A stretch of DNA of 56,091 bases from Nitrospirota bacterium. GTDB lineage: Bacteria > Nitrospirota > JACRHL01. Shown one piece after another: positions 24,739-43,901 of this stretch (its first letter is position 1; each line of letters begins with the position of its first letter). The position numbers and the translations under genes were made by a program. Under the pieces are notes generated by a model. It was not told the origin of the DNA, made no database searches, and saw only the letters and a program-made list of their open reading frames with translations. The stretch is taken from the NCBI GenBank assembly GCA_016212085.1, contig JACRHL010000007.1, positions 1 to 56,091 of the forward strand. Direction: 5' to 3'.

Positions 24739-27702
24739 CTAGAAGTTGATGCGGTAACCCAGGGTGGCGTAGTAGCCGTAGGTGTCCTCGCGGGCGCCGT
24801 TGAAGAAGTTGCCGGACCAGTCGCCGCCCGTCTCCATCTCGAGCTGGAACAGCCGCCCCAGGCGGTAGTCGGCGCGGATGGACGGGAAGATGCCGATCAG
24901 CTTCGACTTGTCCGTGAAGTTGTCGCGGTAGTCGATATGCGCGCGCGGGTTGATGCGCCAGCGGTTGCCCACCGGGTAGCGCATGTTGAAGTTGAGCGAC
25001 GTGGAGGTGGCGGTGCTGGTGTTCGCGTAGCGCGCGCCCAGGATGGTCACGTCGTCGTCGCGGATGAGGTGGTTGACGATCATCTGGGTGTTGATGAAGA
25101 ACTCATCGCCCGTTCCCGCCACCGCCAGGACGCCCTCCGACGCGGGCGTGCCACCCAGTTTCGACACGGTCACGTCGGCGTTGATCTGCACCCGGCCGTT
25201 GATGGGGTGGGTGGCGCCGAGGGTGAGGGTGCGGCTGGTGGGCGTGCGGTCCAGCGCCACCTCGCGGGTGCGGTTCACGCCGAGCACGTACCTCATGGTC
25301 TCGATGGTCCCGTACGGTTGGCCCTGCAACGCGTTGCTGGTGGTAAGCACCGGGCTCTTGCGCACGTCGATGGTCAGGCTCAGGGTGCTCTTGTCCGGCA
25401 GGGTCAGGTTGCCCAGCAGCAGCATGGTGTTCACCTTGCCGAACATGATGTCGTAATCGAACAGGCCGAACAGGGAGCGGTTGGGGCGGAAGTAGCGCAC
25501 CTCGGTACCCACCGCGCGCCGGTCCACCACCGCGTCGTAGGCGATCTGCTGGATGGCGAACAGGTTGAAGTCCCACGCGTCCGCATAGGTGCCCAGGTCG
25601 GCATTGATGCCCACGAAGTAGCGCTTGTAGGTGATCTGCTCCGAGTTGGCGATGTCCACCGGGAAACCGGCCACCAGGTTCAGCTGCCGGCGCGGCGCCA
25701 GCCGGTAGCCCAGGTTGAAGCCGTCGTAGCGGCCGAGCACGCCGCCGGAGGTCTGCGTCTGGCGCCCCAGGCGGCCGGACCACGGGTTGCTGCGGTGGCT
25801 CAGGTCCACGTACAGGGTGGTGATGCGCGCCGCGCTCGCGGAGCCGTTGTTGGTGCTGGCGGACAGGAAGTCGTAGCGATGGTCCGCCGACAGCCGCGTG
25901 CGCACGTTGAGGGCGCCGCCACGGCGGCGCAGGTTGACGTCCAGATCGGAGGACAGGGCCGACTGGAGCACGTCCTGGTTGCCGTCCTGGTCGATGTTGA
26001 CGTCGTAGCGGTAGTATTGGTTGATGCCGCCGCCCACGTCCCAGCGCACCGCCTGGTCGCGCCGTTCCGACTTTTTCAGCCGTTCCTGCGGGGCGCGGGT
26101 GGCGGTGACCAGGCCGGCCAGGCGCTGGCGCACGCGGTCCGCGCCGGTCCCCTCCGGATACACCTCCAGGTAGCGCTCATACTCCGCCTTGGCGTGGGCG
26201 AACTGGCCGTTGCGCTCGCGCGCCAGCCCCAGGAACTCCTGCGCGTCCTGCTGGTAGGAGTGGTCGGGGATGGTCAGCACCTTGGTGTAGATCTGGATGG
26301 CGCGCGGGTAGTCGCCCCGGGTGATCGCCTTGCGGCCCTGGTCCATCAACTCGATGAGCGTCTTCTCCTCCTCGTCGGTTAGTGCGCGCAGGGGGCGCTG
26401 GGCGGTCGCGGGGGCCGGGGCGGGGCCGGTCTGCTGGATCTGGGTGCGCACCGAGTCGCGGCGCTCCACGATGGGCACCTTGGTCACCCAGTTGCCCGGG
26501 AAGTCCGCCGCCAGCGCGCGCTGGTACTGGGAGGCCTCGCCGGTGGTGGTGAAGAAGCCGAGGCGCAACTGGTAGATGGCCTTGCCGCCCTGGGCGGATT
26601 CGGCCACGTACAGCCGGTAGGCGCGCAGGGCCACGGGCAACTGGGGCAGCGCCGTCGGGCTGATGGGGGTCTCCGACAGCATGAGCTGGATGGCGTAGGG
26701 GGCGGTGAGGTCCACCTTGGGGGTGATGGGCCGCACGGTGCGCACCGGGGGCGCCGCCAGGCCCGCCTCGGCGGCCGCCTGCGCCGGGGCCGGTTCGGGG
26801 GCCGGCTTGTCCTTGGCCCACAGTTCGCCATTGGCGGAGGCGAGGCGCTCCTCCTGCGGGGTGCGCATCACCCAGTTGCCGGGAAATTTCTTTTCCAGGG
26901 CCGGTTGCAGCGCCGTCGCTTCCGCCGCGGTGGTGAAGAAGCCGATACGCAGCTGGTACCAGGTGATGCCGCCCCGGTCCACCGTGCTCACGTACACCCG
27001 GTAGCCCGTCATCTCGGGGAGTCTGGGGACCGCGTTCGGGTCGATGGGTGTCTTGGTCAGCATGAGCTGGATGGCGTAGGGCGCCTCCACCTGCCTGGGT
27101 GTCTCGCCCGCCTTCACGGCGGCCTTCGCCACCTCCGCCGGCGCCTGGCTGGCCATGGCGGTGGCGGCGGTGGCGGCGGTGGTATTGGCCGCCGCGGCCG
27201 TGGTGTCGACCGCCTTGTCGCCACCACCGAACAGCCGCGCGAGGAAGCCCCCCTTGACCGCCCGCTTGGCGAGCAGCTGTTTGGCGGAGGCCTTGCGCTC
27301 CTTCATGGAGACGCGCGTCACCCAGCTGCCGGGAAAATCCTGCTCCAGTCGCGGTTGCAGGGCGGCCGCCTCCGCATTGCTGGAAAAGAAGCCCATGCGC
27401 AGCCGGTACCAGGTGATGCCCTGGCTGACATAGGTGCTGACGTACAGGCGGTACCCCTCCATGACCGGGAGCTGTGCCACGTTGTCCGGCGTGATGGGGG
27501 TGGACGCAAGCCGCAACTGGATGGCGTAGGGGTTGTTCAGGTCCACGTCGTCGCTGGCGAGGGCCGGCCACGGCAGCAGGAGGGACAGCGCCAGCAGGGC
27601 GCCGCCCATTGCCCGCCACGCGGTCCGCCGGTGGCGCCCAGGGGTGCCCGGCAGTGCCTTGGGCATCCATGCCCGGAATAGCGTCAACGTGAGGTCGGTC
27701 AT
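24739..27702 (-). CDS. Outer-membrane beta-barrel protein with three SPOR-like repeats and TPR-like region
   Basis: 987 residues from ATG 27702 (27666 is an alternative start). A signal peptide ends near ALA at residue 48. Three related repeats of about 70 residues (59-130, 209-279, 335-408) share YAIQL, WYxLRxGFF and FPGxWVT, and look like SPOR domains, which bind bare peptidoglycan glycan. A TPR-like helical region spans about 445-530. From about 555 to the end are alternating, aromatic-rich strands ending GYYATLGYRINF, a terminal-Phe outer-membrane barrel signature. It is the last gene of the multiheme cytochrome operon and is the likely porin of that conduit. Function inferred; the domain combination is unfamiliar to me. 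Confidence 0.7.
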   Translation of the reverse strand: MTDLTLTLFRAWMPKALPGTPGRHRRTAWRAMGGALLALSLLLPWPALASDDVDLNNPYAIQLRLASTPITPDNVAQLPVMEGYRLYVSTYVSQGITWYRLRMGFFSSNAEAAALQPRLEQDFPGSWVTRVSMKERKASAKQLLAKRAVKGGFLARLFGGGDKAVDTTAAAANTTAATAATAMASQAPAEVAKAAVKAGETPRQVEAPYAIQLMLTKTPIDPNAVPRLPEMTGYRVYVSTVDRGGITWYQLRIGFFTTAAEATALQPALEKKFPGNWVMRTPQEERLASANGELWAKDKPAPEPAPAQAAAEAGLAAPPVRTVRPITPKVDLTAPYAIQLMLSETPISPTALPQLPVALRAYRLYVAESAQGGKAIYQLRLGFFTTTGEASQYQRALAADFPGNWVTKVPIVERRDSVRTQIQQTGPAPAPATAQRPLRALTDEEEKTLIELMDQGRKAITRGDYPRAIQIYTKVLTIPDHSYQQDAQEFLGLARERNGQFAHAKAEYERYLEVYPEGTGADRVRQRLAGLVTATRAPQERLKKSERRDQAVRWDVGGGINQYYRYDVNIDQDGNQDVLQSALSSDLDVNLRRRGGALNVRTRLSADHRYDFLSASTNNGSASAARITTLYVDLSHRSNPWSGRLGRQTQTSGGVLGRYDGFNLGYRLAPRRQLNLVAGFPVDIANSEQITYKRYFVGINADLGTYADAWDFNLFAIQQIAYDAVVDRRAVGTEVRYFRPNRSLFGLFDYDIMFGKVNTMLLLGNLTLPDKSTLSLTIDVRKSPVLTTSNALQGQPYGTIETMRYVLGVNRTREVALDRTPTSRTLTLGATHPINGRVQINADVTVSKLGGTPASEGVLAVAGTGDEFFINTQMIVNHLIRDDDVTILGARYANTSTATSTSLNFNMRYPVGNRWRINPRAHIDYRDNFTDKSKLIGIFPSIRADYRLGRLFQLEMETGGDWSGNFFNGAREDTYGYYATLGYRINF

Positions 27703-27846
27703 GCGGAAAAAAGCGTGCTGTCGCGTCCTTGCGGTGTACCGCGCCGTTGCCGGACCTGCACCACCGGGGCCGGGTGGTAAACGGGTTGTCGGGCACACAG
27801 ATTACAAGTCTGTATCGGCGGATTGTCTCCGGGGATTGAACGGAAT

Positions 27847-27887
27847 GGCAACGCCCCCCCGTCCCGCGGGAGCGGGGGGGCGTTGCC
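27847..27887 (-). terminator. Long hairpin after the giant cytochrome gene
   Basis: GGCAACGCCCCCCCG and CGGGGGGGCGTTGCC form a perfect 15-bp stem, and the inner TCCCG/CGGGA extends it with one bulge. It lies 9 bases beyond the giant cytochrome stop and 145 bases before the barrel gene. No T-run follows on either strand, so it may attenuate or protect the 3' end of the mRNA instead of fully terminating. Confidence 0.55.
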
Positions 27888-27896
27888 GAGGGTGGG

Positions 27897-30800
27897 TCAA
27901 TCGAACGAACCGTCGCTCACCCGGTGCTCGCGGGTGCGGGTTCTCAGGATGGTGGTAAAGCTGTTGTCCGTGTACACGTGGCAGGCACCGGAACAATCCC
28001 TGAGCTCGCTCACCGTGTAGCGGACGGTGGTGGGCACCTCGGTCTTCTTGTGCGGATCCGCCCGGTAATCCCCCGCGTGGCATCCGGCGCAGGCCGGCTG
28101 GTAGCCGTACGGCCAGGGGATCACCTCGCTGTTGCTCTGGTGGCAGGCGCTGCAGGTCAGCGCCCGGCGGTGGTCACCCGGGTAGTTGCTGGAGGTGTGC
28201 CGGAAGGTCAGCGGCGTCCACCCCGTCGAGTTGTGGCAGTGGTCGCAGGAACGGGTGGTGACGAAGTGGCTGCCCGACTTGCCGGTGGCGCTGCTGCCGT
28301 TGTGGCAGTTGGCACAGGTTCCCGCCGACACGTTGGCGTGGTTGAAGCTCGCGTTGCTCCAGGTGGTGGTGCCGTGGCACTCGTCGCAGGTGTTGCTGCT
28401 CTGCACGTGGCCCGCCGGCTTGCCCACCGCCGTGTTGCCGTTGTGGCAGCTGAAGCACGAGCCCGCGGTCACGCCGCTGTGGTTGAACGATGCCCCCAGC
28501 CAGCTGGCGGTGGTGTGGCAGTCGTCGCACACGTTGCTGCTGTTGATGTGGGTGCTCGGCTTGCCGGCGGCGCTGGTGCCGTTGTGGCAGGTGTAGCACG
28601 ACCCTGCGGTCACGCCGCCGTGGTTGAACGATGCCCCCAGCCAGCTGGCGGTGGTGTGGCAATCGTCGCACACGTTGCCGCTGGCGATGTGGGTGCTGGG
28701 CTTGCCGGTGGCGCTGGCGCCGTTGTGGCAGCTGAAGCACGAGCCCGGCGTCACGCTGCCGTGGTCCCAGGTGGTGACCCACGTGCCGGTGCCGTGGCAC
28801 TGGTCGCACGACGCGCCGTTGGTGGGCACGTGGCCGCCGGGCAGGCCGGTGGCGTTGGTGCCGTTGTGGCAGGTGACGCAGGTGCCGGGCTGCACGTTCT
28901 GGTGGTTGAACGTCGCCCCGGTCCAGCGCGTGGTGGTGTGGCACACGTCGCACGAGTCGCTGGTGGGGATGTGGCCGCCGGGCAGGCCGGCGGCGTTGGT
29001 GCCGTTGTGGCAGGTCTTGCAGGTGCCCGCCACCACGCCCGAGTGGTCGAACTGGACCAGCCAGTTGGCGGTGGTGTGGCACTGGTCGCACGGCTGGCTG
29101 GTGGGGATGTGGGTCGATCCCTTGGTGCGCGCGTTCACGCCGTTGTGGCAGGTGGCGCAGGTGCCGGGCCGCACGTTCTGGTGGTTGAACGTGGTCAGCC
29201 AGCTCGCCGGCGTGTGGCACACGTCGCACGCGTCGTTGGTGGGCAGGTGGGTGGCCGTCTTGCCGGTGGCGTTGGTGCCGTTGTGGCAGGTGGCGCAGGC
29301 GCCCGGCGCCACGCCCGAGTGGTCGAAGGTGCCGCGCCACTGGGTGGTGGTGTGGCAATCGTCGCACACGTTGCCGCTGGGCACGTGGCGCGCCGTCTTG
29401 CCGGTGGCGTTGGTGCCGTTGTGGCAGTTGAAGCAGGTGCCCGGATCCACGTTGTGGTGGTCGAAGGCCACGAACCAGCTGCCGGCGGTGTGACAGCCGT
29501 CACAGGTGTTGTTGCTCGGGATGTGGTTGCTGGGCTTGCCGGTGGCGCGGGTGCCGTTGTGGCAGTTGAAGCAGGTGCCCGGCACCACGTTGCCGTGGTC
29601 GAACGTGGTCAGCCAGCTCGACGTGGTGTGGCACACGTCGCACGCCTCGGTGGTGGGGATGTGGGTGGCCGCCTTGCCGGTGGCGTTGGTGCCGTTGTGG
29701 CAGGTGGTGCAGGTGCCGGGCTGCACGTCCGAGTGGTCGAAGATCACGAACCAGCTGCCGCCGGCGGTGTGGCAATCATCGCAACCCTGGCTGGTCGGAA
29801 TGTGGCCCGCCGTCTTGCCGGTGGCGTTGGTGCCGTTGTGGCAGGTGGCGCAGGAGCCCGGCGCCACGCCTGAATGGTCGAACTGCACGAACCAGCTGCC
29901 GCCGGTGGTGTGGCACCGGTCACACTGGGCCCCGCTGGTGGGCAGGTGGCCGGCGGGCAGCCCGGTGGCGTTGGCGCCGTTGTGACAGGTGGTGCAGGTG
30001 CCCGGCTGCACGCCCGAGTGGTTGAACGTGGTCAGCCAGCTTGCCGGCGTGTGGCACACGTCGCACGCCTCGCCGGTGGGCAGGTGGGCCGCCGACTTGC
30101 CGGTGGCGTTGGTGCCGTTGTGGCAGGTGGCGCAGGAGCCCGGCGCCACGCCGGAGTGGTCGAACGAGCCGCGCCAGCCGGTGGTCACGTGGCAGTCGTC
30201 ACAGGTGTTGCCGCTGGGCACGTGGCGCGCCGACTTGCCGGTGGCGTTGGTGCCGTTGTGGCAGGTGAAGCAGGTGCCCGGCTCCACGGTGCGGTGGTTG
30301 AACGAGGTATGCCACGACGAGGTGTTGTGGCACTGGTCGCAGGCGTTGCCGCTGGGCACGTGACTGTTGGGCTTGCCGGTGGCGCGCACGCCGTTGTGGC
30401 AGTTGATGCAGGCGCCCACCACGTCGACATGGTCCACCTGGAACGGGCGCCAGGTGAGGGGCAGGTGACAGTGCTCGCAGGCGTTGGAGGTCTGGACGTG
30501 GGCGGCCGTCTTGCCGATGGCGGTGCTGTTGTTGTGGCAGCTGAAGCAGTTGCCGGTGACCTGGGTGTGGTCGAACACCGCGGACGCGAAGTTGGTGGTG
30601 GTGTGGCAGTCGTCGCAGGCGTTGCCGCTGGCGATGTGGTCCGCCGACTTGCCCGGTGCGATACGGCCGTTGTGGCAGTTCTCGCAGGTGCCGATCACCG
30701 AGACATGGTCCACCTGGAGGGCCGGCGACCAGCTGGCGGCGCCGTGGCAGTCGTCGCAGGTGTCGTAGCTCTTGATGTGGTTGGGCGACTTGGCGGTGGC

Positions 30801-31070
30801 CCCCACCCGGCCCGACTGGGTGTGGCAGCCGACGCAGGTGGACGGGATGCCGGTGAACACGCCGCCCTGGTGACAGCGGGCGCACTCCACCTGGCCGTGG
30901 GCGCCGTCGAGCGGAAAGCCGGTGGTGAAGTGATCGAAGTTGGCGCCCGGCGTGGCCGAGTTGGCGAACACCGGGAAGAACCCGGCAAACAGCAGCGCCA
31001 GGCCCACGATGCGCAGGATGCGACCGAGGGGATAGCGGGTCGGGACGGGATGTCTGAAGATGTGTGCCAT
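27897..31070 (-). CDS. Giant multiheme c-type cytochrome (41 CxxCH plus one CX3CH)
   Basis: 1057 residues. The signal peptide (GLALLFAGFFPVFA) sends it through Sec to the periplasm or beyond. I counted 41 CxxCH heme sites and a final DCSGACH (CX3CH). Most of the protein is about 17 tandem units of about 46 residues, each with one CxxCHNGTNATGK site, a GHxPT histidine, one CDxCHTT site and an FxHSGV histidine. The extra histidines fit bis-His axial ligation. The ATG is one base from the stop of the 21-heme gene. Family knowledge: such heme wires carry electrons across the envelope or outside the cell. An outer-membrane or surface place is inferred. Confidence 0.9.
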   Translation of the reverse strand: MAHIFRHPVPTRYPLGRILRIVGLALLFAGFFPVFANSATPGANFDHFTTGFPLDGAHGQVECARCHQGGVFTGIPSTCVGCHTQSGRVGATAKSPNHIKSYDTCDDCHGAASWSPALQVDHVSVIGTCENCHNGRIAPGKSADHIASGNACDDCHTTTNFASAVFDHTQVTGNCFSCHNNSTAIGKTAAHVQTSNACEHCHLPLTWRPFQVDHVDVVGACINCHNGVRATGKPNSHVPSGNACDQCHNTSSWHTSFNHRTVEPGTCFTCHNGTNATGKSARHVPSGNTCDDCHVTTGWRGSFDHSGVAPGSCATCHNGTNATGKSAAHLPTGEACDVCHTPASWLTTFNHSGVQPGTCTTCHNGANATGLPAGHLPTSGAQCDRCHTTGGSWFVQFDHSGVAPGSCATCHNGTNATGKTAGHIPTSQGCDDCHTAGGSWFVIFDHSDVQPGTCTTCHNGTNATGKAATHIPTTEACDVCHTTSSWLTTFDHGNVVPGTCFNCHNGTRATGKPSNHIPSNNTCDGCHTAGSWFVAFDHHNVDPGTCFNCHNGTNATGKTARHVPSGNVCDDCHTTTQWRGTFDHSGVAPGACATCHNGTNATGKTATHLPTNDACDVCHTPASWLTTFNHQNVRPGTCATCHNGVNARTKGSTHIPTSQPCDQCHTTANWLVQFDHSGVVAGTCKTCHNGTNAAGLPGGHIPTSDSCDVCHTTTRWTGATFNHQNVQPGTCVTCHNGTNATGLPGGHVPTNGASCDQCHGTGTWVTTWDHGSVTPGSCFSCHNGASATGKPSTHIASGNVCDDCHTTASWLGASFNHGGVTAGSCYTCHNGTSAAGKPSTHINSSNVCDDCHTTASWLGASFNHSGVTAGSCFSCHNGNTAVGKPAGHVQSSNTCDECHGTTTWSNASFNHANVSAGTCANCHNGSSATGKSGSHFVTTRSCDHCHNSTGWTPLTFRHTSSNYPGDHRRALTCSACHQSNSEVIPWPYGYQPACAGCHAGDYRADPHKKTEVPTTVRYTVSELRDCSGACHVYTDNSFTTILRTRTREHRVSDGSFD
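28233..30690 (-). repeat. Tandem heme-unit repeats inside the giant cytochrome gene
   Basis: About 17 in-frame direct repeats of roughly 138 bases (46 codons), each coding for two heme sites. Many copies share long identical DNA blocks, for instance around GTTGGTGCCGTTGTGGCAGG on the plus strand. Small length changes (an extra Gly-Ser or Gln) occur in some units. The pattern suggests growth by unequal recombination and may vary between strains. Confidence 0.85.
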
Positions 31071-31071
31071 G

Positions 31072-32646
31072 TCAGCTCTCGATACGTAGCTTGTCGAACG
31101 CTTCGGTGGTGTGACAGCGGGCGCAGTGCGGGCCGAAGCCGCCGTCGTGGATGTCGTCCTGCTGGTGGCAATCGCCGCAGGCGGAGGAAAGCTCGATCTT
31201 GTCCTTGACCGGGCGCTGGTGGCAGCCGTCGCAGGCCAGCCCCTTGTGGGCGCCGGTGAGTTCGAAATCGGTCTGGGTGTCGTGGTCGAAGCGCCACAGG
31301 TTCCAGGCGTTGGGGTTGTGGCACTGGGCGCAATCCGGCCCCAGGCGGCGCTCATGTTCGTCGTCACCCTTGTGGCAGGCGTCGCAGTCCATGGCGGTGG
31401 CCTTGAAGGTGGCGCCCAGGTGGCACTCGTCGCAGGGCGTCACCGCGTGCAGGCCGATGAGCGGGAAGCGCGTCAGGTCGTGGTCGAAGAAGACCTTGTG
31501 GCCCCAGCCCTTCTCGTTGTGGCACTTGTCGCACACCTTGCCCTGCTCGCCGCCGTGCACGTCGTCCTTGCGGTGGCAGGTGTAGCAGTCGGTGCCGCGC
31601 TCTTCTTTCTCGATGGTGCCCTGGTGGCAGGCCTTGCAGTCGAGCTTGGCGTGCTTCTCCAGGAGCGGGAAGTCGGTGTCGGTGTCGTGGTCGAAGGCGG
31701 TGTCGCGCCAGCCCTTGGGGGCGTGGCAATCGTCGCATTTCTCGCCGAAGCGGCCCTTGTGCTCGTCGTCGTTCCGGTGGCAGCCGTGGCAGGTGGTGGG
31801 GGTTTTCTCGTCGTACAGGTCGTCGCTGGTGTGGCAGGCGTTGCACGTCACGTCCTTGTGGCGCTCCACCAGCTTGTAGTCCGTGTCCTTGTCGTGGTTG
31901 AAGGTCGGCTTGTCCCACGCCTTGGGGGTGTGGCAGGTGTCGCACTTCTCGCCGTAACGCCCGCCGTGGGTGTCGTTCAGGCGGTGGCAGGCGTGGCAGG
32001 TGGTGGGGGTTTTCTTGTAGCGCTCGTTGGGGTGACAGGCGTTGCAGAGCACCTTCTCGTGCTCGCCCTGCAACGGGAAGTCGGTGTCCTTGTGGTCGAA
32101 GGCGGTGTCGGACCAGGCGCGCTCGTTGTGGCATTCGTGGCATTTTTCGCCAAGCTTGCCGTCGTGCGGGTCGTCCTCCTTGTGGCAGTCGAGACAGGCG
32201 TGCGGTGCGTCGCGATACGGCTTCTTGTCCTTGTGGCAGCGGTCGCAGGTGACGGCCCGGTGGGCGCCCTTGAGCACAAAATCGGTGTTGCCGTGGTCGA
32301 AGGTCTCCCGGTCCAGTTGCACCACGTCGGCGCCGCGCCCCAGGTGGTCGGAGTGGCAGCGCTTGCACTCGGCGGTCTGGATGCCGGCGATGCGGCCGTG
32401 GAACCCGCTCTTGCCCTTGATGTCGCCGTCCACCTTGTCGTGGCAGTCGAGGCACAGGCGCGACTGGCCGGCCTTGGTGAACGGCTGGTGGCACTTGCTG
32501 CACTCGCTCTCGTACTTGGCGTGCCCCGCAATGACCTTGCCGGGCATCACCAGCTCCTCGAAGCTGGCGGCCAGGGCGGCGGGGGTGGATGCAAGCAGGG
32601 TGGTCACGGCAAGTGTCAGCAGGATGCGCGCGTGGCGGAACAGCAT
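31072..32646 (-). CDS. 21-heme periplasmic c-type cytochrome
   Basis: 524 residues from ATG 32646 (an in-frame TTG lies at 32652). A signal peptide ends near AALA. I counted 21 CxxCH sites, laid out as about seven units of three hemes with recurring EKCxxCH, FDHxxTDFPLxGxH and TxCHxCH elements. Spacing and histidines resemble the cytochrome c3/c7 and MtrA-like periplasmic shuttles. It lies between the b-type membrane protein and the giant cytochrome, as expected for a link between inner membrane and porin. Confidence 0.92.
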   Translation of the reverse strand: MLFRHARILLTLAVTTLLASTPAALAASFEELVMPGKVIAGHAKYESECSKCHQPFTKAGQSRLCLDCHDKVDGDIKGKSGFHGRIAGIQTAECKRCHSDHLGRGADVVQLDRETFDHGNTDFVLKGAHRAVTCDRCHKDKKPYRDAPHACLDCHKEDDPHDGKLGEKCHECHNERAWSDTAFDHKDTDFPLQGEHEKVLCNACHPNERYKKTPTTCHACHRLNDTHGGRYGEKCDTCHTPKAWDKPTFNHDKDTDYKLVERHKDVTCNACHTSDDLYDEKTPTTCHGCHRNDDEHKGRFGEKCDDCHAPKGWRDTAFDHDTDTDFPLLEKHAKLDCKACHQGTIEKEERGTDCYTCHRKDDVHGGEQGKVCDKCHNEKGWGHKVFFDHDLTRFPLIGLHAVTPCDECHLGATFKATAMDCDACHKGDDEHERRLGPDCAQCHNPNAWNLWRFDHDTQTDFELTGAHKGLACDGCHQRPVKDKIELSSACGDCHQQDDIHDGGFGPHCARCHTTEAFDKLRIES

Positions 32647-32670
32647 TCCCAATACGTCGGGCAGGCCCGG

Positions 32671-33660
32671 TTAATACATGTGAACGGCCACCACGTGCAT
32701 CACGCCCGCGACGACCAGCATAAAGAACAGTGGCAGGTGCAGCACGTGCCAGAATGAAAACAGGCGCTCGTAGAAGCCCAGCTCCGCCACCTGGCGCACG
32801 GTGCGCAGATAGACGCTCAGGAAGCGCCGGGCGTCGCGCCGGTTGCGGCGCCGCTCGCGCCAGGTCCAACCCGCCTGGCGTGCCTTGAGCCTGACGGCCC
32901 CGCTCATGAACCGGCTCAGGCGGAGCCGGGTGGCGCGCACGCGCATGCCCAGCACCATGACCTTGACCAGCCCGTGCAGGGGGTTCCGTGCCGGCGCCAG
33001 CACGCGATCCTCGAAGGCCTGCAAGCGCGCCCGCAGCTGCGGGGCGAAGGCGAACTCCGCCGACAGCCGGCCCTTGGCGGTCAACGCGTCCTCGCGCAGG
33101 GCGTTCAGGGTGACGCGCCCGCCATACAGGCCGTAGTGAACCTTGGTGTAGATGAAGCGTCCGATGATGCCGCTGCCGGCCACCGTGAGGGTGCTGATGA
33201 GCGCCACGTTGCTGTTCAGGGAGCCGAGCTGGAAGTTGGCGTGGAACAGGATGCACACGGGGGCGATGATGCCCATGATCATGTGGGTGGAGAACCACAC
33301 GGGCACCGAGCCCCAGCGGCGCATGAACGACAGCCGCTTGCGCATCGGGTAGAGCAGCAGCAGGATCATGGTGACGGCACCGATGATGCCCAGGGCGTAG
33401 CCCGTCCCCGACTCGGCGGTAAGGCCGCTCTGGTCGCGCCCCAGCCAGCCCCAGGCGATGATCGCGATCGTGCACAGGCTGAACAAAATGGAACCGACCC
33501 ACCCGCGCCAGGGCGATCCGCCGCGGTGGGGGGCGGCGGCGCGCGACGATGCCTCGGCCGGACGCGCCGGCGTCTCGGCGGCGGCCGGCGTGGCCGCGTG
33601 GGCGCTGGATCGGCGGGCGACGGTATCGGGCGCGTCTAGGGTTTGGTTCGCGGTCGGCAT
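32671..33660 (-). CDS. Membrane b-type cytochrome-like protein
   Basis: 329 residues from ATG 33660. The first 50 residues are Ala/Pro-rich and low in complexity. Predicted helices are at about 54-74, 87-105, 122-142, 152-172 and 303-327. Histidines 126, 140, 175, 305, 308, 322 and 327 lie in or next to helices and could bind b hemes, as in ferric reductase-like or cytochrome b561-like proteins. A basic cytoplasmic-looking loop spans 180-295. It is the first gene of the cytochrome operon, so I infer a quinone- or ferredoxin-linked inner-membrane entry point. No exact family recognised. Confidence 0.65.
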   Translation of the reverse strand: MPTANQTLDAPDTVARRSSAHAATPAAAETPARPAEASSRAAAPHRGGSPWRGWVGSILFSLCTIAIIAWGWLGRDQSGLTAESGTGYALGIIGAVTMILLLLYPMRKRLSFMRRWGSVPVWFSTHMIMGIIAPVCILFHANFQLGSLNSNVALISTLTVAGSGIIGRFIYTKVHYGLYGGRVTLNALREDALTAKGRLSAEFAFAPQLRARLQAFEDRVLAPARNPLHGLVKVMVLGMRVRATRLRLSRFMSGAVRLKARQAGWTWRERRRNRRDARRFLSVYLRTVRQVAELGFYERLFSFWHVLHLPLFFMLVVAGVMHVVAVHMY

Positions 33661-34149
33661 GGTCCCATCATGGGGTCGATCAATCCTGTCGGTGGAGAGT
33701 ACAGCAATCGGCGTGCCAACCCGTGGCAATTCCCGGTTTTGTTCCGTCACCGCGGGGCTCCAGGGCCCCGCCGGCCACACGGCACGGGGCGCGATCTGGT
33801 ACACTCAGCGGCGGACGGGGCCGTGCCGGGCGCGCGGGGCGCATGGTCGGTCGGTCCCACCGTCAACGGTTTGGCCTGGGTTGGCGAAATGGCTGCTCCT
33901 CCCCCTCCTGCCGGGGCCGCGCCGGCTCCAGGGGTGCGGCTCGACCGACAGGTCATGTGGTTAGACGACGGCACCGTGCAAAAAGTTCCCGGCTTCGGCC
34001 ACGACCCGGGCATTTTTTCAACGGCCGGTCCGGGCGCCGGCCCTGGAGCGCGGCGGATCGGCGCGGAACGGATCTTGCTAGGGGGTTCCCTCCCGCACCG
34101 GCCCGGATGGCGGACCGGGCCCCGCCGTCATGTTCAGGTTACTATTCGG
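33661..34149. promoter_or_regulatory. Divergent intergenic region of the cytochrome cluster
   Basis: This 489-base stretch separates the two divergent operons and must hold both promoters. I see a possible extended -10 (TGGTACACT, hexamer 33800-33805), an imperfect palindrome with A- and T-runs at 33975-34023, and a 7-bp inverted repeat GGCCCGG-N8-CCGGGCC at 34100-34121, 28 bases before the plus-strand ATG. An open plus-strand frame crosses the region but has no coding character. Confidence 0.55.
33975..34023. repeat. Imperfect palindrome, third copy of the TTTTTCAAC element
   Basis: CGTGCAAAAAGTTCCCGG and CCCGGGCATTTTTTCAACG are imperfect inverted arms around a 12-base centre. The right arm recalls the TTTTTCAAC arm found at 37537-37570 and 53018-53049. 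The match is the weakest of the three. Confidence 0.35.
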
Positions 34150-35463
34150 ATGGAAATCGCCCTTAATTTAGCGCTTTACCTCGTTCCACTGGGTCTGGTC
34201 TGGGCTGCCTACCATTTTGCGCGCAATCGGGTCAGCCGGCGCAACCGGGCCATTCTGGCGGAGGCGGAGGAGGCGGGGCTGACCGAGCCCGCATCGCTGC
34301 ATCCGCTCATCGACGAGGTGCGCTGCATCGGCTGCGCCGCCTGCGTGACCGCCTGCCCGGAGCACAAGCACCATGTGCTGGGGCTGATCGACGGCCGTGC
34401 CCAGCTCACCAATCCCACCTATTGCATCGGCCACGGCGCCTGCAAGGCGGCCTGCCCGGTGGACGCCATCACCCTGGTGTTCGGCACCGCCAAGCGCGGC
34501 GTGGACATCCCCGTGGTGCAGCCCACCTTCGAGACCAACGTGCCGGGCATCTTCATCGCCGGCGAGCTGGGCGGCATGGGCCTGATCCGCAACGCCATGG
34601 AGCAGGGCAAGCAGGCCATGGAGAGCATCGGCCGGGTGCCCGGCATGGGCGGCGGCGGCACGACCGACGTGGTCATCGTCGGCTGCGGCCCGGCGGGCAT
34701 CGCCGCCTCCCTGAGCGCCAAGGCGGCGGGCCTGCGCTACGTGACCCTCGACCAGGACTCGCTGGGCGGAACGGTCTACAATTTCCCCCGTGGCAAGCTG
34801 GTGATGACGGCGCCGGTGGAGCTGCCCATCGTCGGCAGGACGCGCTTCACCGATACCACCAAGGAGGCGCTGCTGGCCTATTTCGAGGGGATCGTCGCCA
34901 AGGCGGATTTGAGGATCAACTTCAGGGAACGCATGGACGCCATCGTTCCCGTGGACGGGGGCTTCGTGGTCAAGACGCCGCGCGCCGAATACCGCACCCG
35001 CGCCGTGCTGCTGTGCATCGGCCGGCGCGGCACGCCGCGCAAGCTGGGCGTGCCCGGCGAGGAGGGCAGCCCCAAGGTGGTGTACCGGCTCATGGACCCG
35101 GAGCAGTACAAGGGCCAGCACGTGCTGGTGGTGGGCGGCGGCGACAGTGCCCTGGAGGCGGCAGCCAGCATCGTCGACCAGCCCGGCACCACCGTCACCC
35201 TGTCCTACCGCTCCGAGGCGTTCGGCCGCGCCAAGGCCGCCAACCGCGAACGGGTGCGCCAGGCGACGGAGACGGGGCGCCTCACGGTGATGCTCAAGTC
35301 CAGCGTGAAGGAGATCACCCCGGACCGGGTGCGGATCGAGTGGGACGGCACCACCCGCGACCTGCCCAACGACGCGGTGATCGTCTGCGCCGGGGGCATT
35401 CTGCCCACCCCGTTCCTGAAGGAGATCGGCATCATGGTGGAGACCAAGTATGGGACCGCGTGA
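34150..35463 (+). CDS. Membrane-anchored ferredoxin/FAD-NAD(P) oxidoreductase
   Basis: 437 residues. One N-terminal helix (3-22) anchors it. A ferredoxin domain follows: Cys59, 62, 65 and 69 form one [4Fe-4S] site, while the second has Cys92, His95, Cys98 and Cys102, with His at the usual second Cys place. Residues 118-160 resemble the C-terminal TNVPGIFIAGELGG segment of thioredoxin reductase-like enzymes, yet they precede the main FAD domain (GCGPAG at 178-183). An NAD(P) motif (VVGGGDSALEAA) follows. It may link NAD(P)H or ferredoxin to the divergent cytochrome operon. Its end overlaps the next gene by 14 bases. Confidence 0.8.
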   Translation: MEIALNLALYLVPLGLVWAAYHFARNRVSRRNRAILAEAEEAGLTEPASLHPLIDEVRCIGCAACVTACPEHKHHVLGLIDGRAQLTNPTYCIGHGACKAACPVDAITLVFGTAKRGVDIPVVQPTFETNVPGIFIAGELGGMGLIRNAMEQGKQAMESIGRVPGMGGGGTTDVVIVGCGPAGIAASLSAKAAGLRYVTLDQDSLGGTVYNFPRGKLVMTAPVELPIVGRTRFTDTTKEALLAYFEGIVAKADLRINFRERMDAIVPVDGGFVVKTPRAEYRTRAVLLCIGRRGTPRKLGVPGEEGSPKVVYRLMDPEQYKGQHVLVVGGGDSALEAAASIVDQPGTTVTLSYRSEAFGRAKAANRERVRQATETGRLTVMLKSSVKEITPDRVRIEWDGTTRDLPNDAVIVCAGGILPTPFLKEIGIMVETKYGTA

Positions 35464-37501
35464 CCCGGGCCTTTGCCGGCGCGTCGCCACCGCCCTGCTG
35501 GCCGGCCTGCTGGCCCTGGCGGCGCCCGCCCTGGCCGACGAGCTGGACGACGCCAGGCGCGCCATCCTCGTGAAGGACTTCGAGCGCGCGGTGAGCATCC
35601 TGGAGCCCCTGGCCACGGGTGGCAACGCGGAGGCCCAGTATCAGATGGGCGCCCTTTACCGTTCCGGCACCGGCGTGGCCAAGAACCACGAGCAGGCGGT
35701 GCGCTGGTACCGCCTGGCCGCAGAGCAGGGGCACGACAAGGCCCAGTACAACCTGGGCGTCATGTACGAAAACGGCTGGGGGGTGGACGCGGACTGGGAC
35801 CAGGCCAAGGCGTGGTTCAAGAAGGCCGCGGCCCAGGGCCATACCATGGCCAAGTCCAAGCTGGGCGAGGAAAAGAGCCCGCGCATCAAGGACGTGAAGG
35901 ACAAGCCGGACGCGGATCAGCCCAGCGATGACGAGGCGCTGCGCTGGGCCGCGGGAGGCGGTGACCTGCGCCGCGTCTCCGCCCTGGTCGCCGCCGGTGC
36001 CAGGGTGGACGCGCCGGGCCCGTATGGCAAGACCGCGCTGATGAACGCCGCCGAGGCGGGCGACCTGCCGATGGTCAAGGTCCTGCTCGCTGCCGGGGCC
36101 GATCCGAACCGGCGCGACGATTACCAGGACACGCCGCTCACCCTGGCGGCGCGCGAGGGGCGGCCCGAGACCATGCAGGCCCTGGTGGGCGCCGGCGCCG
36201 ATCCGGCGGTACGCGACGCCAACGGCAACACGCCGCTCATCCTGGCGGCGCAAAAGGGGCATGCCCAGTCGGTGGCGGTCCTGCTGGACCTGGGTGTGGA
36301 CATCGCCGCCACGAACAAGAAGCAGTGGAGCGCCCTGCGCGAGGCGGACAGCCGCGACCACAAGGAGGTTGCCAAGCTGCTCACCGCCCGTGGCGCCGTG
36401 CTCGAGGAGTTGCCCCAGCCGGAGCCGGCGGTGCCGCTCATCGTGCTCGAGGAAATGGCCGCCAAGGGCGCGCCCGATGACGATGCCTCCCTTTACGAGG
36501 GTTGGCCCACGCTCATGGTGGCCGCCTGGCGCGGCCAGATGGACGCGGTGAAAACCCTGCTCGCGCAGGGCGCGGCCGTGGACGCCCGCGACAAGGATGG
36601 CCACACCGCCCTAAGCCGTGCCGCGTGGCAGGGCTATCACGAGGTGGTCAGCGTGCTGCTTGGGAGCGGAGCCGGTCCCAACGCCCGCCAGGGCAACGGC
36701 AAGGCCCCCATCATGTGGGCGGCGGAGGGGGGGCACGACGACGCGGTGCGGGTGCTGCTGGGCGCGGGCGTCAGCCCCAACACCCGCCAGGAGGGGGCCG
36801 CCTACGACACCCTGATGGCCGCGGCAGAGGGGGGCAACGTCGCGGTGGTCAGGCGGCTCCTCAAGGCCGGGGCCGACGTGCACTTTGCCCAGGACGATGG
36901 CACCACGGCCCTGATGCTGGCGGTGCAGGCGGGCAACGCGGACGTGACGGCGGCGCTGGTCAAGGCCGGGGCCGAGGTGAACGCCCACGACCGCTTCCGG
37001 CGCAACGCCCTGTCGTTTGGCGCCGCCGGCGGCCACGGCGCGGTGGTGTCGGCCCTGATCGCCGCCGGCGCGCACCTGGAGGAGGCGGACACGGATGGCC
37101 ACACCGCCCTGTCGCGCGCCGCCTGGCGCGGCCATGAACAGGTGGTGCGGGCGTTGGTGACGGCGGGCGCCAACTTCGCCACCCACACCCGCTCCGGCAA
37201 CACGCCGCTGATGCTGGCGGCGGGCGCCGGCCACGACCAGGTGGTGCGGTTGCTGGTGGAGGCGGGCGCGCCGCTGGACGACAAGAACGGCGTGGGCAAC
37301 ACGGCCTTGATGCTGGCCGCCGCCGGGGGCTACCCGGAAACGGCGCGGCTGCTGCTGGACGCCGGGGCGAACGCCAAGGTGCGCAACAAGCGCCGCGAGC
37401 AGGCCGCCGACATGGCCGCCCACGCGGGCCACGCGGCGATCGTCGAGCTGATCGAAAGCCACTCGGGAAAGGGCGGGAAGGGCCTGTTCGACATGTTCTA
37501 G
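35450..37501 (+). CDS. Secreted Sel1/ankyrin repeat protein
   Basis: 683 residues. A signal peptide (ATALLAGLLALAAPALA) is followed by two Sel1-like repeats (about 50-125: AQYQMGALYRSGTGVAKN and AQYNLGVMYENGWGV). From about 155 to 665 there are roughly a dozen ankyrin repeats with the G-TALxxAA pattern. It is a periplasmic protein-interaction scaffold by architecture. Its ATG lies inside the oxidoreductase gene, so both are coupled, which suggests a role in the electron-transfer cluster, for example assembly. The partner is unknown. Confidence 0.8.
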   Translation: MGPRDPGLCRRVATALLAGLLALAAPALADELDDARRAILVKDFERAVSILEPLATGGNAEAQYQMGALYRSGTGVAKNHEQAVRWYRLAAEQGHDKAQYNLGVMYENGWGVDADWDQAKAWFKKAAAQGHTMAKSKLGEEKSPRIKDVKDKPDADQPSDDEALRWAAGGGDLRRVSALVAAGARVDAPGPYGKTALMNAAEAGDLPMVKVLLAAGADPNRRDDYQDTPLTLAAREGRPETMQALVGAGADPAVRDANGNTPLILAAQKGHAQSVAVLLDLGVDIAATNKKQWSALREADSRDHKEVAKLLTARGAVLEELPQPEPAVPLIVLEEMAAKGAPDDDASLYEGWPTLMVAAWRGQMDAVKTLLAQGAAVDARDKDGHTALSRAAWQGYHEVVSVLLGSGAGPNARQGNGKAPIMWAAEGGHDDAVRVLLGAGVSPNTRQEGAAYDTLMAAAEGGNVAVVRRLLKAGADVHFAQDDGTTALMLAVQAGNADVTAALVKAGAEVNAHDRFRRNALSFGAAGGHGAVVSALIAAGAHLEEADTDGHTALSRAAWRGHEQVVRALVTAGANFATHTRSGNTPLMLAAGAGHDQVVRLLVEAGAPLDDKNGVGNTALMLAAAGGYPETARLLLDAGANAKVRNKRREQAADMAAHAGHAAIVELIESHSGKGGKGLFDMF

Positions 37502-37577: not shown

Positions 37578-39167
37578 CTAGCGGGGCGGCGAATCCGGGA
37601 TGGGGGCGGCGCTGGGGATGGTCAGGATCTGGCCCGCCGTCAACCGGTCCGGGTTGGTGAGTTGCGGGTTGGCCCGCCACACGGTCTCCCAGAATGCCGG
37701 GTCGCCGAAGTATCGCGCGGCGATGGTGCCCAGCGTGTCGCCCGCCGCCACCGTGTGGCGGGTGGGCGGTCCGCCGTCCGGAGGCGGTGCGGGCAGGGTG
37801 AGCGCCATGCCCGCCGTCAACCGGTCCGGGTCGGTCAGCCAGGGGTTGGCCGCCCACACCCGCTTCCACAGGCGTTTGCTGCCCAGGTGGCGCTCGGCGA
37901 TGCTGCCCAGGGTATCGCCGGCGGCCACCACGTGCCGGCCGGTCACGGCTTCCCGTGGCTTCGGCGGGGGCAGCGGGCGGGCCTGCGGCCGTGGCGCGCC
38001 CGGTGCCGGGATCAGCAGCACGTCGCCCGCCTCCAGCCGGTCCGGGTTGTCCACGTGCGGGTTGGCCTCCCGGATCCACTCCCACAGGGCGGGGTCGCCC
38101 AGGTAGCGGGCCGCCAGGGTGCCCAGGGTGTCGCCGACCACCACCACGTGGTCCACGGTGCCGGGCACGGCCAGGGCGGTGAGGGTCGGCGTCGGCGGGG
38201 CGGGCGGCACGGGGGCGGCGCCGGGCGTGGGGGGTGCGGACGGGGCGGGCGCCGTGGGATGCGGCGCGGTGTCCGTCTCCGGGACGGGAATGATGATGAT
38301 CTGGCCCACCTCCAGGCGGTTCGGATCACCCAGCGCCGGATTGGCGCGCCAGATGGCCTTCCAATGATCGGGCGCGCCCAGGTAGGCGGTGGCGAGGGTG
38401 CCCAGCGTCTCGCCCGCCCGCACCGTGTGCCGGCCCATGGACGGGACGGCGGCGCGCGGGGCGGCCGTGGCCGGCATGGCCGGTGCGATGGTGCCGGGAA
38501 CGTTCAGGCGCTGGCCCACCTTCAGGTGGTGCGGGTCGGTCATGGCGGGATTGGCCCCCCACACCTCGCGCCAGCGGGTGGGGCTGCCCAGGTACAGGGT
38601 GGCGATGGTGCCCAGGGTCTCGCCGGGGGCCACCGTGTGGCGGGTGACCGCCGGGGCCGGGGGCGCCGTGGCGGGCTTGGGCGCGGGCTTCCGTGCGGCC
38701 GCCGGCGCGGGTGCCGGTTCCGTGCGGGGTGTCGCGTGCGCCACGGGCGGGGCGGGTTCGGGCCTTGGCCTCGCGGCGGCCGCCGGCGGCCGCCCGGCGG
38801 GGCGGGCCTCCACCTTGCCCAGGCGCTCCTCGATCAGCGCCAGCATGTCGCGCACCAGCTCCAGCTGCTGCTCGGAGCGTTGCCGTTCCGCCGCCAGCAG
38901 GTTCAGTATCTCGCGGGTGTCGGGGACGCCCAGGCCCTGGCGTTGCCAGCTCAGCTCGCCCATGGCGCGTTCCAGGTTGGTGACGCGGGCGCGGGTGACC
39001 TCGAGCTCCGCCATCTGGTCGAGGATCTGCTCCTGCTGCCCCTTCAGGGCGGCCAGGTCGCGCTCCAGGCGCAGGGTGTCCGCATGGGTGGCGCAACCCC
39101 CCGCGGCAAGGGCCAGGGTGGCGGCCAGCAGCGCGCCCGGCAAGGCGGTCCGCAGCACGCGGCGCAT
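37578..39167 (-). CDS. Lipoprotein with five LysM domains
   Basis: 529 residues from ATG 39167; an in-frame GTG at 39212 would add 15 residues before the signal. The lipobox LALAAGGC marks a lipoprotein. A helical, likely coiled-coil part follows (about 30-115), then a Pro/Ala-rich linker, then five LysM units starting near HTVAPGETLGTIA, HTVRAGETLGTLA, HVVVVGDTLGTLA, HVVAAGDTLGSIA and HTVAAGDTLGTIA. Each has a WxxIWxANP-type half. LysM binds peptidoglycan N-acetylglucosamine, so this protein may tie the envelope together. No catalytic domain is seen. Confidence 0.85.
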   Translation of the reverse strand: MRRVLRTALPGALLAATLALAAGGCATHADTLRLERDLAALKGQQEQILDQMAELEVTRARVTNLERAMGELSWQRQGLGVPDTREILNLLAAERQRSEQQLELVRDMLALIEERLGKVEARPAGRPPAAAARPRPEPAPPVAHATPRTEPAPAPAAARKPAPKPATAPPAPAVTRHTVAPGETLGTIATLYLGSPTRWREVWGANPAMTDPHHLKVGQRLNVPGTIAPAMPATAAPRAAVPSMGRHTVRAGETLGTLATAYLGAPDHWKAIWRANPALGDPNRLEVGQIIIIPVPETDTAPHPTAPAPSAPPTPGAAPVPPAPPTPTLTALAVPGTVDHVVVVGDTLGTLAARYLGDPALWEWIREANPHVDNPDRLEAGDVLLIPAPGAPRPQARPLPPPKPREAVTGRHVVAAGDTLGSIAERHLGSKRLWKRVWAANPWLTDPDRLTAGMALTLPAPPPDGGPPTRHTVAAGDTLGTIAARYFGDPAFWETVWRANPQLTNPDRLTAGQILTIPSAAPIPDSPPR

Positions 39168-39360
39168 GGGGGCGCATGTTGTCCGAAGCCGATTCAAAAC
39201 GGTCGCCACCACCCGTCCATTCCCCTTGCCTCATCGCCTGCGCCGCGGGCGCGGAGCCCCGTTCCGGAACGGTCCGGAACAAGGATACACGGCGGCGCGG
39301 GCACGCGGGTTCCTGCTGCCCTTATCGGTCCATGGGGCGTTTACGCATCAGGGCGGCGGG

Positions 39361-41119: not shown

Positions 41120-42613
41120 ATGAGGTGGCGTCACGGGGGGTTGCGGGGCGGCCTGGCGCTGGTGGCGCTGGCGGCCGCCATGCTGTTGCCGGCCGGCAGC
41201 GGGCGGGCGGCAGGCCCGCTGCCCATCGAAACCCTGAGCGAGCCGTCGCGCGCCTGCGTGGGCTGCCATCAGATGACCAGCGTCAACGTGTACCAGCAGT
41301 GGGGCCGCAGCACGCACTATGGCGCCAACGTGGGCTGCTACGAGTGTCATCGGGCCCAGGCGTCCGACCCGGATGCCTTCAAGCACAACGGCTTCACCAT
41401 CTCCGTCATCGTCTCCCCCAAGGACTGCGCCCAGTGCCACGCGTCCACCGTGCGCGAGTTCACCGAGTCCCACCACGCCAAGGCCGCCCGCATCCTGGGC
41501 TCGCAGGACAACCTGCTGGCCGAGGTGGTGGAAGGCAACAACGGCTTCGTCACCCCGGCCTTCCCGGAGGGGGTCTCCGCCGCCGCGGTGAACGGCTGCT
41601 GGCAGTGCCACGGCGCCGAGGTGCGGGTGCTCAAGGACGCTGCCGGCCAGCCGACGGGTCAGCTCGACCCGGCCACCTGGCCCAACACGGGCATCGGCCG
41701 CATCAACCCCGACGGCTCGGAGGGGAGCTGCTCCGCCTGCCACCAGCGCCACGAGTTCTCGGTGGCCCAGGCCCGCCAGCCGGAGGAGTGCGGCAAGTGC
41801 CACATGGGGCCGGACCACCCCCAGATCGAGATCTACAACGAATCCAAGCACGGCATCAACTACCGCGCCAACCGGGAGCGCATGAACCTGGACGCCAACA
41901 AGTGGGTGGTGGGGGAGGACTACTTCGCCGCGCCCACCTGCGCCACCTGCCACATGTCCGCCACCCGCGACCTGCCGGTCACCCACAACGTGGGCCTGCG
42001 CATCAAGTGGAACAACCGCCCGGTGCATCCCACCCTGGCCCATTTGACGGACAAGAAATGGGGCCTGCCCTCCGCCCAGGTGAGCGGCGACCGGCGCCGG
42101 GCCGACATGGAACTGGTGTGCGAGGCGTGCCACGCGGGCAGCTTCATCGGCAACTTCTTCGTCCAGTACGAGGCGTTGCTCACCCTGTACGACCAGAAGT
42201 TCGCCACCCCCGGCGAGAAGCTGTACCAGGTGGCCACCGACGTGCTCAGGAAGGCCAAGGGCGAGCGCTACGTGGCCTTCGGCCAGAAGATCGACTTCAC
42301 CTGGTTCGAGCTGTGGCACCACGAGGGGCGGCGCGCCCGCCACGCGGCCTCCATGCAGGCGCCGGACTACACGCACTGGCACGGCACCTACGAGCTGGGG
42401 CGCAACTTCTACACCGAGTTCATCCCCGAGATCGAGGCGCTCATCGCCGACAACGCGCGCGGCCCCGCCGCCCGCGAGGCGGCCATCCTCAAGGAGCTGC
42501 TGGCCGAGGTGCTGAACAGCCCCGACCACCGCTGGTACCTGGGGGCCATGTCCGCCGCGGAACGCAAGGCCCGCGACCAGCGCCGCGAACAGTTCCTGGA
42601 ACGCTACAAGTAA
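41120..42613 (+). CDS. Octaheme cytochrome of the hydroxylamine oxidoreductase family (first copy)
   Basis: 497 residues with a signal peptide to about residue 31. Eight CxxCH sites start at 46, 73, 103, 160, 204, 224, 274 and 334; the fourth is at the catalytic heme place of HAO. The family hallmark CGKCHMGPDHPQIEIYNESKHG occurs at 224-245. Tyr417 in APDYTHWHG lies where a P460 cross-linking Tyr would be sought, but I cannot align it here. HAO-family enzymes oxidise hydroxylamine or hydrazine, or reduce nitrite or hydroxylamine. GGGGGAGG precedes the ATG. The second copy follows after 12 bases. Confidence 0.88.
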   Translation: MRWRHGGLRGGLALVALAAAMLLPAGSGRAAGPLPIETLSEPSRACVGCHQMTSVNVYQQWGRSTHYGANVGCYECHRAQASDPDAFKHNGFTISVIVSPKDCAQCHASTVREFTESHHAKAARILGSQDNLLAEVVEGNNGFVTPAFPEGVSAAAVNGCWQCHGAEVRVLKDAAGQPTGQLDPATWPNTGIGRINPDGSEGSCSACHQRHEFSVAQARQPEECGKCHMGPDHPQIEIYNESKHGINYRANRERMNLDANKWVVGEDYFAAPTCATCHMSATRDLPVTHNVGLRIKWNNRPVHPTLAHLTDKKWGLPSAQVSGDRRRADMELVCEACHAGSFIGNFFVQYEALLTLYDQKFATPGEKLYQVATDVLRKAKGERYVAFGQKIDFTWFELWHHEGRRARHAASMQAPDYTHWHGTYELGRNFYTEFIPEIEALIADNARGPAAREAAILKELLAEVLNSPDHRWYLGAMSAAERKARDQRREQFLERYK

Positions 42614-42625
42614 GGAGGGGCGGCC

Positions 42626-43900
42626 ATGGCGAACGCATTCCGGCGCTGGCTGATCCTGCCCGCGCTGCTGGTGCTGCTGGGCGCCGGCGCGGCCTGGGCC
42701 AAAAGTTGCGACCAGTGCCACGAGGTGCTGAACCCCGGCATCGTCGCCGACTGGCGGGAGAGCCTGCACGGCAAGGTGGGCATCAAGTGTTCCGCCTGCC
42801 ACGGCACCAAACACCGCACCGAGAAGGACGTGGCCGAGGCCAAGATGCCCACCCCCGAGGTGTGCGCCACCTGCCACCCGGACCGGGTGGCGGAATACAA
42901 GGCCGGCAAGCACGCCAAGGCCTGGGAGGCCATGAAGGCGATGCCCACCGTCCACTGGATGCCCATGGAGATGATCGAGGGCTTGAAGGGGTGCGGCGGC
43001 TGCCACAAGGTGGGCCTCAAATCCGAGACGGAGGTGCGCACGCTGCTCAAGGAGGACGGCGGCAAGGGGGTGGCCTCCTGCGACGCCTGCCACACCCGAC
43101 ACCTGTTCTCCACCGCCGAGGCCCGCCAGCCGCAGGCCTGCCAGACCTGCCACATGGGGTTCGACCATCCCCAGTGGGAGATGTATTCCACCTCCAAGCA
43201 CGGGGTGCGCTACCTGCTCAAGCAGAACGGCATCCTGCCGCCCCACGTGGCCGCGCCCACCTGCCAGACCTGCCACATGTCCGGCGGCAACCACGAGGTG
43301 CGCACGCCGTGGGGCTTCCTGGCGGTGCGCTTGCCGCTGCCGGCCGACCCCCAGTGGAAGGCGGACCAGGTGACCATCCTGCAGGCCCTGGGGGTGCTGG
43401 ACCCGGCCGGCAAGCCGACCCCCCGGCTGGACGTGGTGAAGGCCGCCGACGTGGCGCGGCTCACCCAGGCGGATTTTGACCGGGAACGGGCGCGGATGAT
43501 TGAAATCTGCACCGGCTGCCACACCCGCTCCTTCGGCCGCGGCGAGATGGAAAAGGGCGACCGGGTGATCCGCGCCGCCGACCACCTGATGGCGGAGGCG
43601 ATTCGCATCGTGGCGGGCCTGTACCGGGACGGCGTGCTGGAAAAGCCCAAGGATTACGCCAGCGCATTCCCCGACCTGCTCACCTTCCACGACGCGCCCA
43701 CGCCCATCGAGCAGCGCCTGTTCGTGATGTTCCTCAAGCACCGCATGCGCACCTTCCAGGGGGCGTTCCACGCCAGCCCGGACTACAGCCTGTGGTACGG
43801 CTGGAGCGAGATGCGCACCGACCTGACGGACATCAGCCACATGGCCAAGGAGCTGCGCCGCGTGGCCGGCAAGGGCGGCCAGGGGGCGGCGGGGGGATAG
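42626..43900 (+). CDS. Octaheme cytochrome of the hydroxylamine oxidoreductase family (second copy)
   Basis: 424 residues, shorter than the first copy. The signal peptide ends AAWA at residue 25. Eight CxxCH sites start at 28, 55, 80, 123, 152, 172, 213 and 295. CQTCHMGFDHPQWEMYSTSKHG matches the HAO hallmark with Pro-to-Phe next to the Gly. Tyr387 in SPDYSLWYG aligns with Tyr417 of the first copy. It may be a partner subunit or a diverged enzyme. GGAGGGGCGGCC is the binding site. Confidence 0.86.
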   Translation: MANAFRRWLILPALLVLLGAGAAWAKSCDQCHEVLNPGIVADWRESLHGKVGIKCSACHGTKHRTEKDVAEAKMPTPEVCATCHPDRVAEYKAGKHAKAWEAMKAMPTVHWMPMEMIEGLKGCGGCHKVGLKSETEVRTLLKEDGGKGVASCDACHTRHLFSTAEARQPQACQTCHMGFDHPQWEMYSTSKHGVRYLLKQNGILPPHVAAPTCQTCHMSGGNHEVRTPWGFLAVRLPLPADPQWKADQVTILQALGVLDPAGKPTPRLDVVKAADVARLTQADFDRERARMIEICTGCHTRSFGRGEMEKGDRVIRAADHLMAEAIRIVAGLYRDGVLEKPKDYASAFPDLLTFHDAPTPIEQRLFVMFLKHRMRTFQGAFHASPDYSLWYGWSEMRTDLTDISHMAKELRRVAGKGGQGAAGG

Positions 43901-43901
43901 C

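Follow-up and report, generated by a model that had tools for sequence, protein, structure and literature searches.

A PCC3-type porin-cytochrome cluster in a Nitrospirota genome and its predicted Fe-S flavoprotein partner

Among the described systems that join a porin to multiheme cytochromes, the closest to the locus presented here is PCC3. As described by He et al. 2017 (PMC5566968), it comprises a porin, two multiheme cytochromes (MHCs), of which the large, extracellular one has a median of 34 hemes and the periplasmic one a median of 21, and an inner-membrane protein (IMP) with roughly 300 aa, five helices, an SGXXG motif on TM4 and a WX3HX13H motif on both TM3 and TM5. Among its carriers are Leptothrix and, with two clusters (Slit_0867-0870 and Slit_1446-1449), Sideroxydans lithotrophicus. 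The likeness extends to the porin, a giant MHC, an MHC of about 21 hemes, the IMP motifs, the low number of residues per heme and the gene order. The published hosts are Alpha-, Beta- and Gammaproteobacteria, whereas the host here belongs to the Nitrospirota, and the flavoprotein, the ankyrin protein and the SPOR domains that occur at this locus are absent from the published model.

Other systems share parts of the arrangement. MtrCAB and MtoAB likewise combine a barrel with periplasmic and outer cytochromes, but MtrA and MtoA are decahemes, whereas the cytochromes of the locus fall under the decaheme-family cut-offs, and electrons enter MtrCAB at the inner membrane through the tetraheme CymA, where the locus has a heme-b protein. 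MtrB has 26 strands, compared to the 22 predicted here. PCC_1 of 'Candidatus Manganitrophus' (PMC9040806) is also a nitrospirotal porin with a multiheme cytochrome, but it is described as a porin-dodecaheme complex and within the Nitrospirota as confined to the Manganitrophaceae. At the inner membrane, the NADPH oxidase/ferric reductase (FRD) family offers a parallel in its two stacked b-hemes, HX13H pairs on TM3 and TM5, and FAD/NAD(P) partner. Unlike FRD, the membrane protein of the locus has no Pfam match (up to E 0.01, ferric-reductase transmembrane domain included) and its flavoprotein is a separate, Fe-S-bearing protein similar to thioredoxin reductase (TrxR) and YpdA.

The window, a stretch of 56,091 nucleotides, comes from a 2.70 Mb genome (99% complete) of a small family of the Nitrospirota. 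A first-pass annotation had claimed that an oxidoreductase, a b-type membrane protein, 21-heme and 42-site cytochromes and a barrel lie together at 24739-35463; the five genes are present in the claimed order, and the heme counts are confirmed (Table 1). Transcription on the minus strand runs from the membrane protein through the 21-heme and 42-site cytochromes to the barrel protein, and a divergent plus-strand operon encodes the Fe-S/FAD oxidoreductase followed by the Sel1/ankyrin protein; no sigma-70-like site was found in the intergenic region between the two. The order IMP, MHC, MHC, porin is that of PCC3, and it recurs in related loci from many phyla. As every PCC3 feature that can be tested in sequence is present, the locus is, at that level, an ordinary PCC3, a further member in a Nitrospirota genome. 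The suspected resemblance to PCC3 is borne out by homology, conserved synteny and the motifs of the He et al. definition, and on these grounds the prediction of a PCC3-type trans-envelope conduit holds.

Table 1. Features of the conduit locus and of neighbouring genes within the window.
Feature	Position	Strand	Basis
Outer-membrane porin: signal peptide, three SPOR, TPR, C-terminal 22-strand barrel (predicted)	24739..27609	minus	Pfam, AlphaFold2, related loci
Giant multiheme cytochrome c, 42 heme sites, 1057 aa	27897..31070	minus	CXXCH count, Cytochrome_C7
Periplasmic 21-heme cytochrome c (predicted), 524 aa	31072..32646	minus	21 CXXCH, homologs
Inner-membrane di-heme b protein (predicted), 329 aa, 5 TM, N-in	32671..33660	minus	Motifs, loop charge, model
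Divergent intergenic region between the two operons, 489 bp	33661..34149	.	Sequence
Membrane-anchored 2x(Fe-S)/FAD/NAD(P) oxidoreductase (predicted), 437 aa	34150..35463	plus	Fer4_10, Pyr_redox_3, motifs, permutation, linkage
Periplasmic Sel1/ankyrin-repeat protein (predicted), second gene of divergent operon	35450..37501	plus	Ank_2 E=1.7e-102, Sel1 E=1.9e-21
Protein with five LysM domains	37578-39212	minus	
Operon of two octaheme cytochromes and a NapC/NrfH-like tetraheme	41120-44498	plus	
Formate dehydrogenase alpha subunit	46102-50415	minus	TIGR01591 over cut-off

The inner-membrane protein carries two W-X3-H-X13-H motifs, at residues 122 and 304, and one SGXXG motif (as SGIIG), at residue 163, with H126/H140 and H308/H322 as the putative heme-b ligands. 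Of 51 homologs, 49-51 retain each of these four histidines (two rows stop short of H322); SGXXG and a further histidine, H175, are likewise conserved. The loop between TM4 and TM5 holds 29 K/R to 9 D/E, which argues for an N-in topology; H126/H308 would then lie towards the cytoplasmic side and H140/H322 towards the periplasmic side. The structure model (pLDDT 84) had no significant fold match in the PDB, the top match being a di-heme cytochrome b561 (E=0.5).

The two cytochromes have 25.2 and 25.0 residues per heme, inside the PCC3 range of 22-39. The giant protein contains 41 CXXCH and one CX3CH at a near-constant spacing of 23-24 residues, far above chance, and matches Cytochrome_C7 in Pfam (E=4e-52); a longer reading frame (to 31367) is an upstream extension that overlaps the next gene. 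By eye it begins with a Sec-type signal peptide, and no lipobox was seen. It is the likely equivalent of the PCC3 'extracellular MHC', which would place it outside the cell. A homolog of the 21-heme protein (21 CXXCH, about 25 aa per heme) adjoins the membrane protein in most related loci, and a sequence search of the PDB returned no relative of it. A decaheme DmsE-type model scored 132.5 bits on the giant cytochrome against a cut-off of 192.2, and decaheme-family models gave no match to the 21-heme protein.

Variants of these cytochromes occur among the related loci. In three records, L030:7638-10100, L079:11279-14548 and L091:12409-15510, of which the first two are deltaproteobacterial, the giant cytochrome itself begins with SPOR domains (E=4e-13, 7e-15 and 9e-5), and this end would then lie in the periplasm. 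Single cytochromes of 40-71 heme sites (L125:6910-11832, also L135-L140) fuse 21-heme-type and giant-type arrays; in the Nitrospirota family f8 the 21-heme-type spacing comes first and the regular giant-type spacing follows, an order that argues for the two cytochromes being end-to-end neighbours. The N-terminal SPOR domain of L030 and L079, together with the fusion to the 21-heme type, suggests that the N-terminus of the giant MHC is periplasmic, at least in those variants.

The porin, whose start may lie further upstream (27666 or 27702), matches SPOR (E=5e-19 for the whole protein) and TPR in Pfam, and a purpose-built profile finds three SPOR-like copies. The first-pass annotation had taken the peptidoglycan-binding modules to be an addition of this locus; with that profile, SPOR domains instead turn up in 31 of 46 porins of PCC3 loci (17 of 37 with Pfam), and what is rarer is the presence of three copies, seen in the window and in L028 only. 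AlphaFold2 predicts 22 strands, with pLDDT > 90 in most barrel blocks. By textbook geometry the lumen of such a barrel measures ~30 Angstrom, which may be wide enough for a multiheme wire, and we infer a cytochrome-in-barrel assembly. The barrel could instead be an ordinary solute porin, with the cytochromes acting as a periplasmic electron store, and the fold search would agree with this: the best matches are general porins and ushers, and MtrB is absent from the 50 best. We nevertheless consider it improbable, as the barrel gene adjoins the cytochromes across many phyla, where porin homologs lie downstream of the giant cytochrome, and as family f8 has an unrelated barrel in the same place.

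The flavoprotein shares FAD and NAD(P) domains with YpdA, thioredoxin reductase and ferredoxin-NADP reductase, but differs from that family in two fused Fe-S motifs, an N-terminal transmembrane helix and a relocated FAD segment, and scores 152 bits against TIGR04018 (cut-off 339.9, NCBIfam). The listed TTG start at 33643 falls inside the neighbouring gene. Its Fe-S motifs are CxxC/SxxCxxxCP and an invariant CxxHxxCxxxCP (residues 92-102), the latter pointing to an Fe-S cluster with either a His ligand or three Cys. The C-terminal FAD segment, IPVVQPTFETNVPGIFIAGELG, precedes the Rossmann domain; searched alone, it aligns weakly (E = 0.017) with a ferredoxin-NADP reductase of 342 residues, at positions 270-291. 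With a rearranged query, the aligned part of YpdA (7a7b) grows from chain residues 5-272 to 5-294, and the score increases from 84 to 91 bits. The gain is modest and consistent with a circularly permuted FAD domain. The TrxR/YpdA-like fold, and the extreme number of CXXCH motifs encoded at the locus, would also fit a role in assembly or thiol homeostasis, in which the protein would maintain the CXXCH cysteines in the reduced state that heme attachment needs. We consider that role very improbable: the TrxR-like part contains no CxxC, the only invariant cysteines being those of the Fe-S motifs, so the protein is no classical disulfide reductase, and the positive charges that follow the N-terminal helix would put the catalytic part in the cytoplasm.

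The divergent redox operon had also been regarded as peculiar to this locus, a view that does not survive comparison. In a sample of the 80 best matches to this membrane protein, which is biased to close relatives, 76 loci were assessable, and 65 of these have the flavoprotein gene close to that of the membrane protein, placed divergently upstream in 58. The flavoprotein is not nearby in eleven related loci, several from Nitrospira, and is therefore not strictly required. Five records of Nitrospira/Nitrospirae (L074, L086, L088, L097 and L102) have the porin and giant cytochrome divergent from the membrane protein and a 21-27-heme cytochrome, with no adjacent flavoprotein. A record titled as a Klebsiella pneumoniae MAG (L089) encodes a PCC3 membrane protein with the flavoprotein and is almost certainly mislabelled or a contaminated bin.

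Across 246 Nitrospirota genomes, 22 encode a full-length flavoprotein, 24 a strong match to the membrane protein and 20 both (Fisher p=2e-23, a value inflated by the non-independence of genomes of one genus). Counted by genus (n = 120), both occur in 12, the membrane protein alone in two and the flavoprotein alone in none. The flavoprotein is kept even where its gene and the membrane-protein gene lie on separate contigs (G115, G147 and G181). The co-occurrence test applies to the Nitrospirota; beyond the phylum the evidence is linkage, which comes without a negative set. Distance matrices of the proteins are correlated (flavoprotein/IMP 0.83, flavoprotein/21-heme 0.87, IMP/21-heme 0.82; permutation maximum 0.16). 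In family f8 the membrane protein, the fused 40-71-heme cytochrome, the unrelated barrel and the flavoprotein form a single operon, a layout which argues that the flavoprotein belongs to the system. Genomic linkage does not imply physical contact between flavoprotein and membrane protein. Combined, these observations make the flavoprotein a well-supported candidate partner gene for the whole PCC3 family, apparently unreported: a search of the open-access literature found no report of PCC3 in Nitrospirota and no mention of either the flavoprotein or SPOR domains in PCC3.

In 41 of the 60 related loci that could be assessed, the gene for the ankyrin protein immediately follows that for the flavoprotein. 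The protein was considered as a defence factor and rejected, the PADLOC matches being to its ankyrin repeats and its start resembling a signal peptide. The LysM-domain gene that adjoins it is not conserved in related loci, nor are the nitroreductase, pirin-like, octaheme and glycosyltransferase neighbours, and all of these are excluded from the system for that reason. The two octahemes, encoded 8 kb from the conduit, are akin to hydroxylamine oxidoreductases and to the octaheme protein of Ignicoccus (4qo5, E=4e-47 for the first of the two), and their operon probably encodes a quinone-linked octaheme enzyme. The formate dehydrogenase, which has an N-terminal NuoG-like 2Fe-2S/4Fe-4S part, is a possible source of NADH.

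We consider it likely that the locus encodes a PCC3-type trans-envelope conduit with the Fe-S flavoprotein as its dedicated cytoplasmic end. Held at the cytoplasmic face by its N-terminal helix, the flavoprotein would exchange electrons with NAD(P)H (or ferredoxin), and its Fe-S clusters would hand them to the heme b on the cytoplasmic side of the membrane protein (H126/H308). The route would continue over the periplasmic heme b (H140/H322) and the 21-heme wire and lead inside the barrel to the giant 42-heme cytochrome on the cell exterior, with the SPOR and TPR domains anchoring the barrel to peptidoglycan. Electrons would in this way cross the whole envelope, and the membrane protein and flavoprotein would together form a two-subunit, split analogue of NADPH oxidase/ferric reductase that stands outside that family.

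In the published PCC3 model, an extracellular donor, for example Fe(II), gives its electrons to the giant cytochrome, and at the membrane protein they end up in the quinone pool; the flavoprotein would then be a passenger with a separate function. He et al. 2017 (PMC5566968) tie the membrane protein to quinones and not to NAD(P)H, several Fe(II) oxidisers carry PCC3, and the host encodes a COX1-type oxidase and belongs to a phylum with Fe and Mn oxidisers. Several properties of the flavoprotein speak against it, namely its near-universal linkage, its co-occurrence, the similarity of its distance patterns and its membership in an operon, as do the data from Sideroxydans ES-1, where expression of both PCC3 clusters is lower on Fe(II) than on thiosulfate (PMC8788666) and the extracellular PCC3 cytochrome Slit_1448 was not detected in the Fe(II) or magnetite proteomes (PMC12016527). 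These data argue against Fe(II) oxidation by PCC3 in that strain, and we regard the published scheme as unlikely for this locus.

For a conduit with the flavoprotein at its cytoplasmic end, we agree with the first-pass annotation that sequence cannot tell the direction of electron flow. No RuBisCO was found in the host genome, nor dsrA above cut-off, so those pathways leave the direction unfixed. Outward flow, in which reductant would be disposed of to minerals, other cells or O2, is slightly favoured over uptake because of the nucleotide link and the ES-1 expression; the PCC3 inner-membrane gene of Sideroxydans CL21, which is up when iron oxidation is possible (PMC12442390), counts against it.

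More tentatively, PCC3 as a whole may be an NAD(P)H (or ferredoxin) oxidoreductase that spans the envelope and resembles an NADPH oxidase split into parts, and not a quinone-linked outer-membrane conduit, with the permuted CxxHxxCxxxCP Fe-S flavoprotein as a core subunit, in which case the cytoplasmic nucleotide pool would be wired to the cell exterior in many phyla. Given the conserved flavoprotein partner, the inner redox pool of the widespread PCC3 systems is predicted to be soluble NAD(P)H or ferredoxin, and the system becomes testable with one purified protein and the membrane protein. The flavoprotein gene may also serve as a marker gene for functional PCC3 loci, those of the Nitrospirota included.
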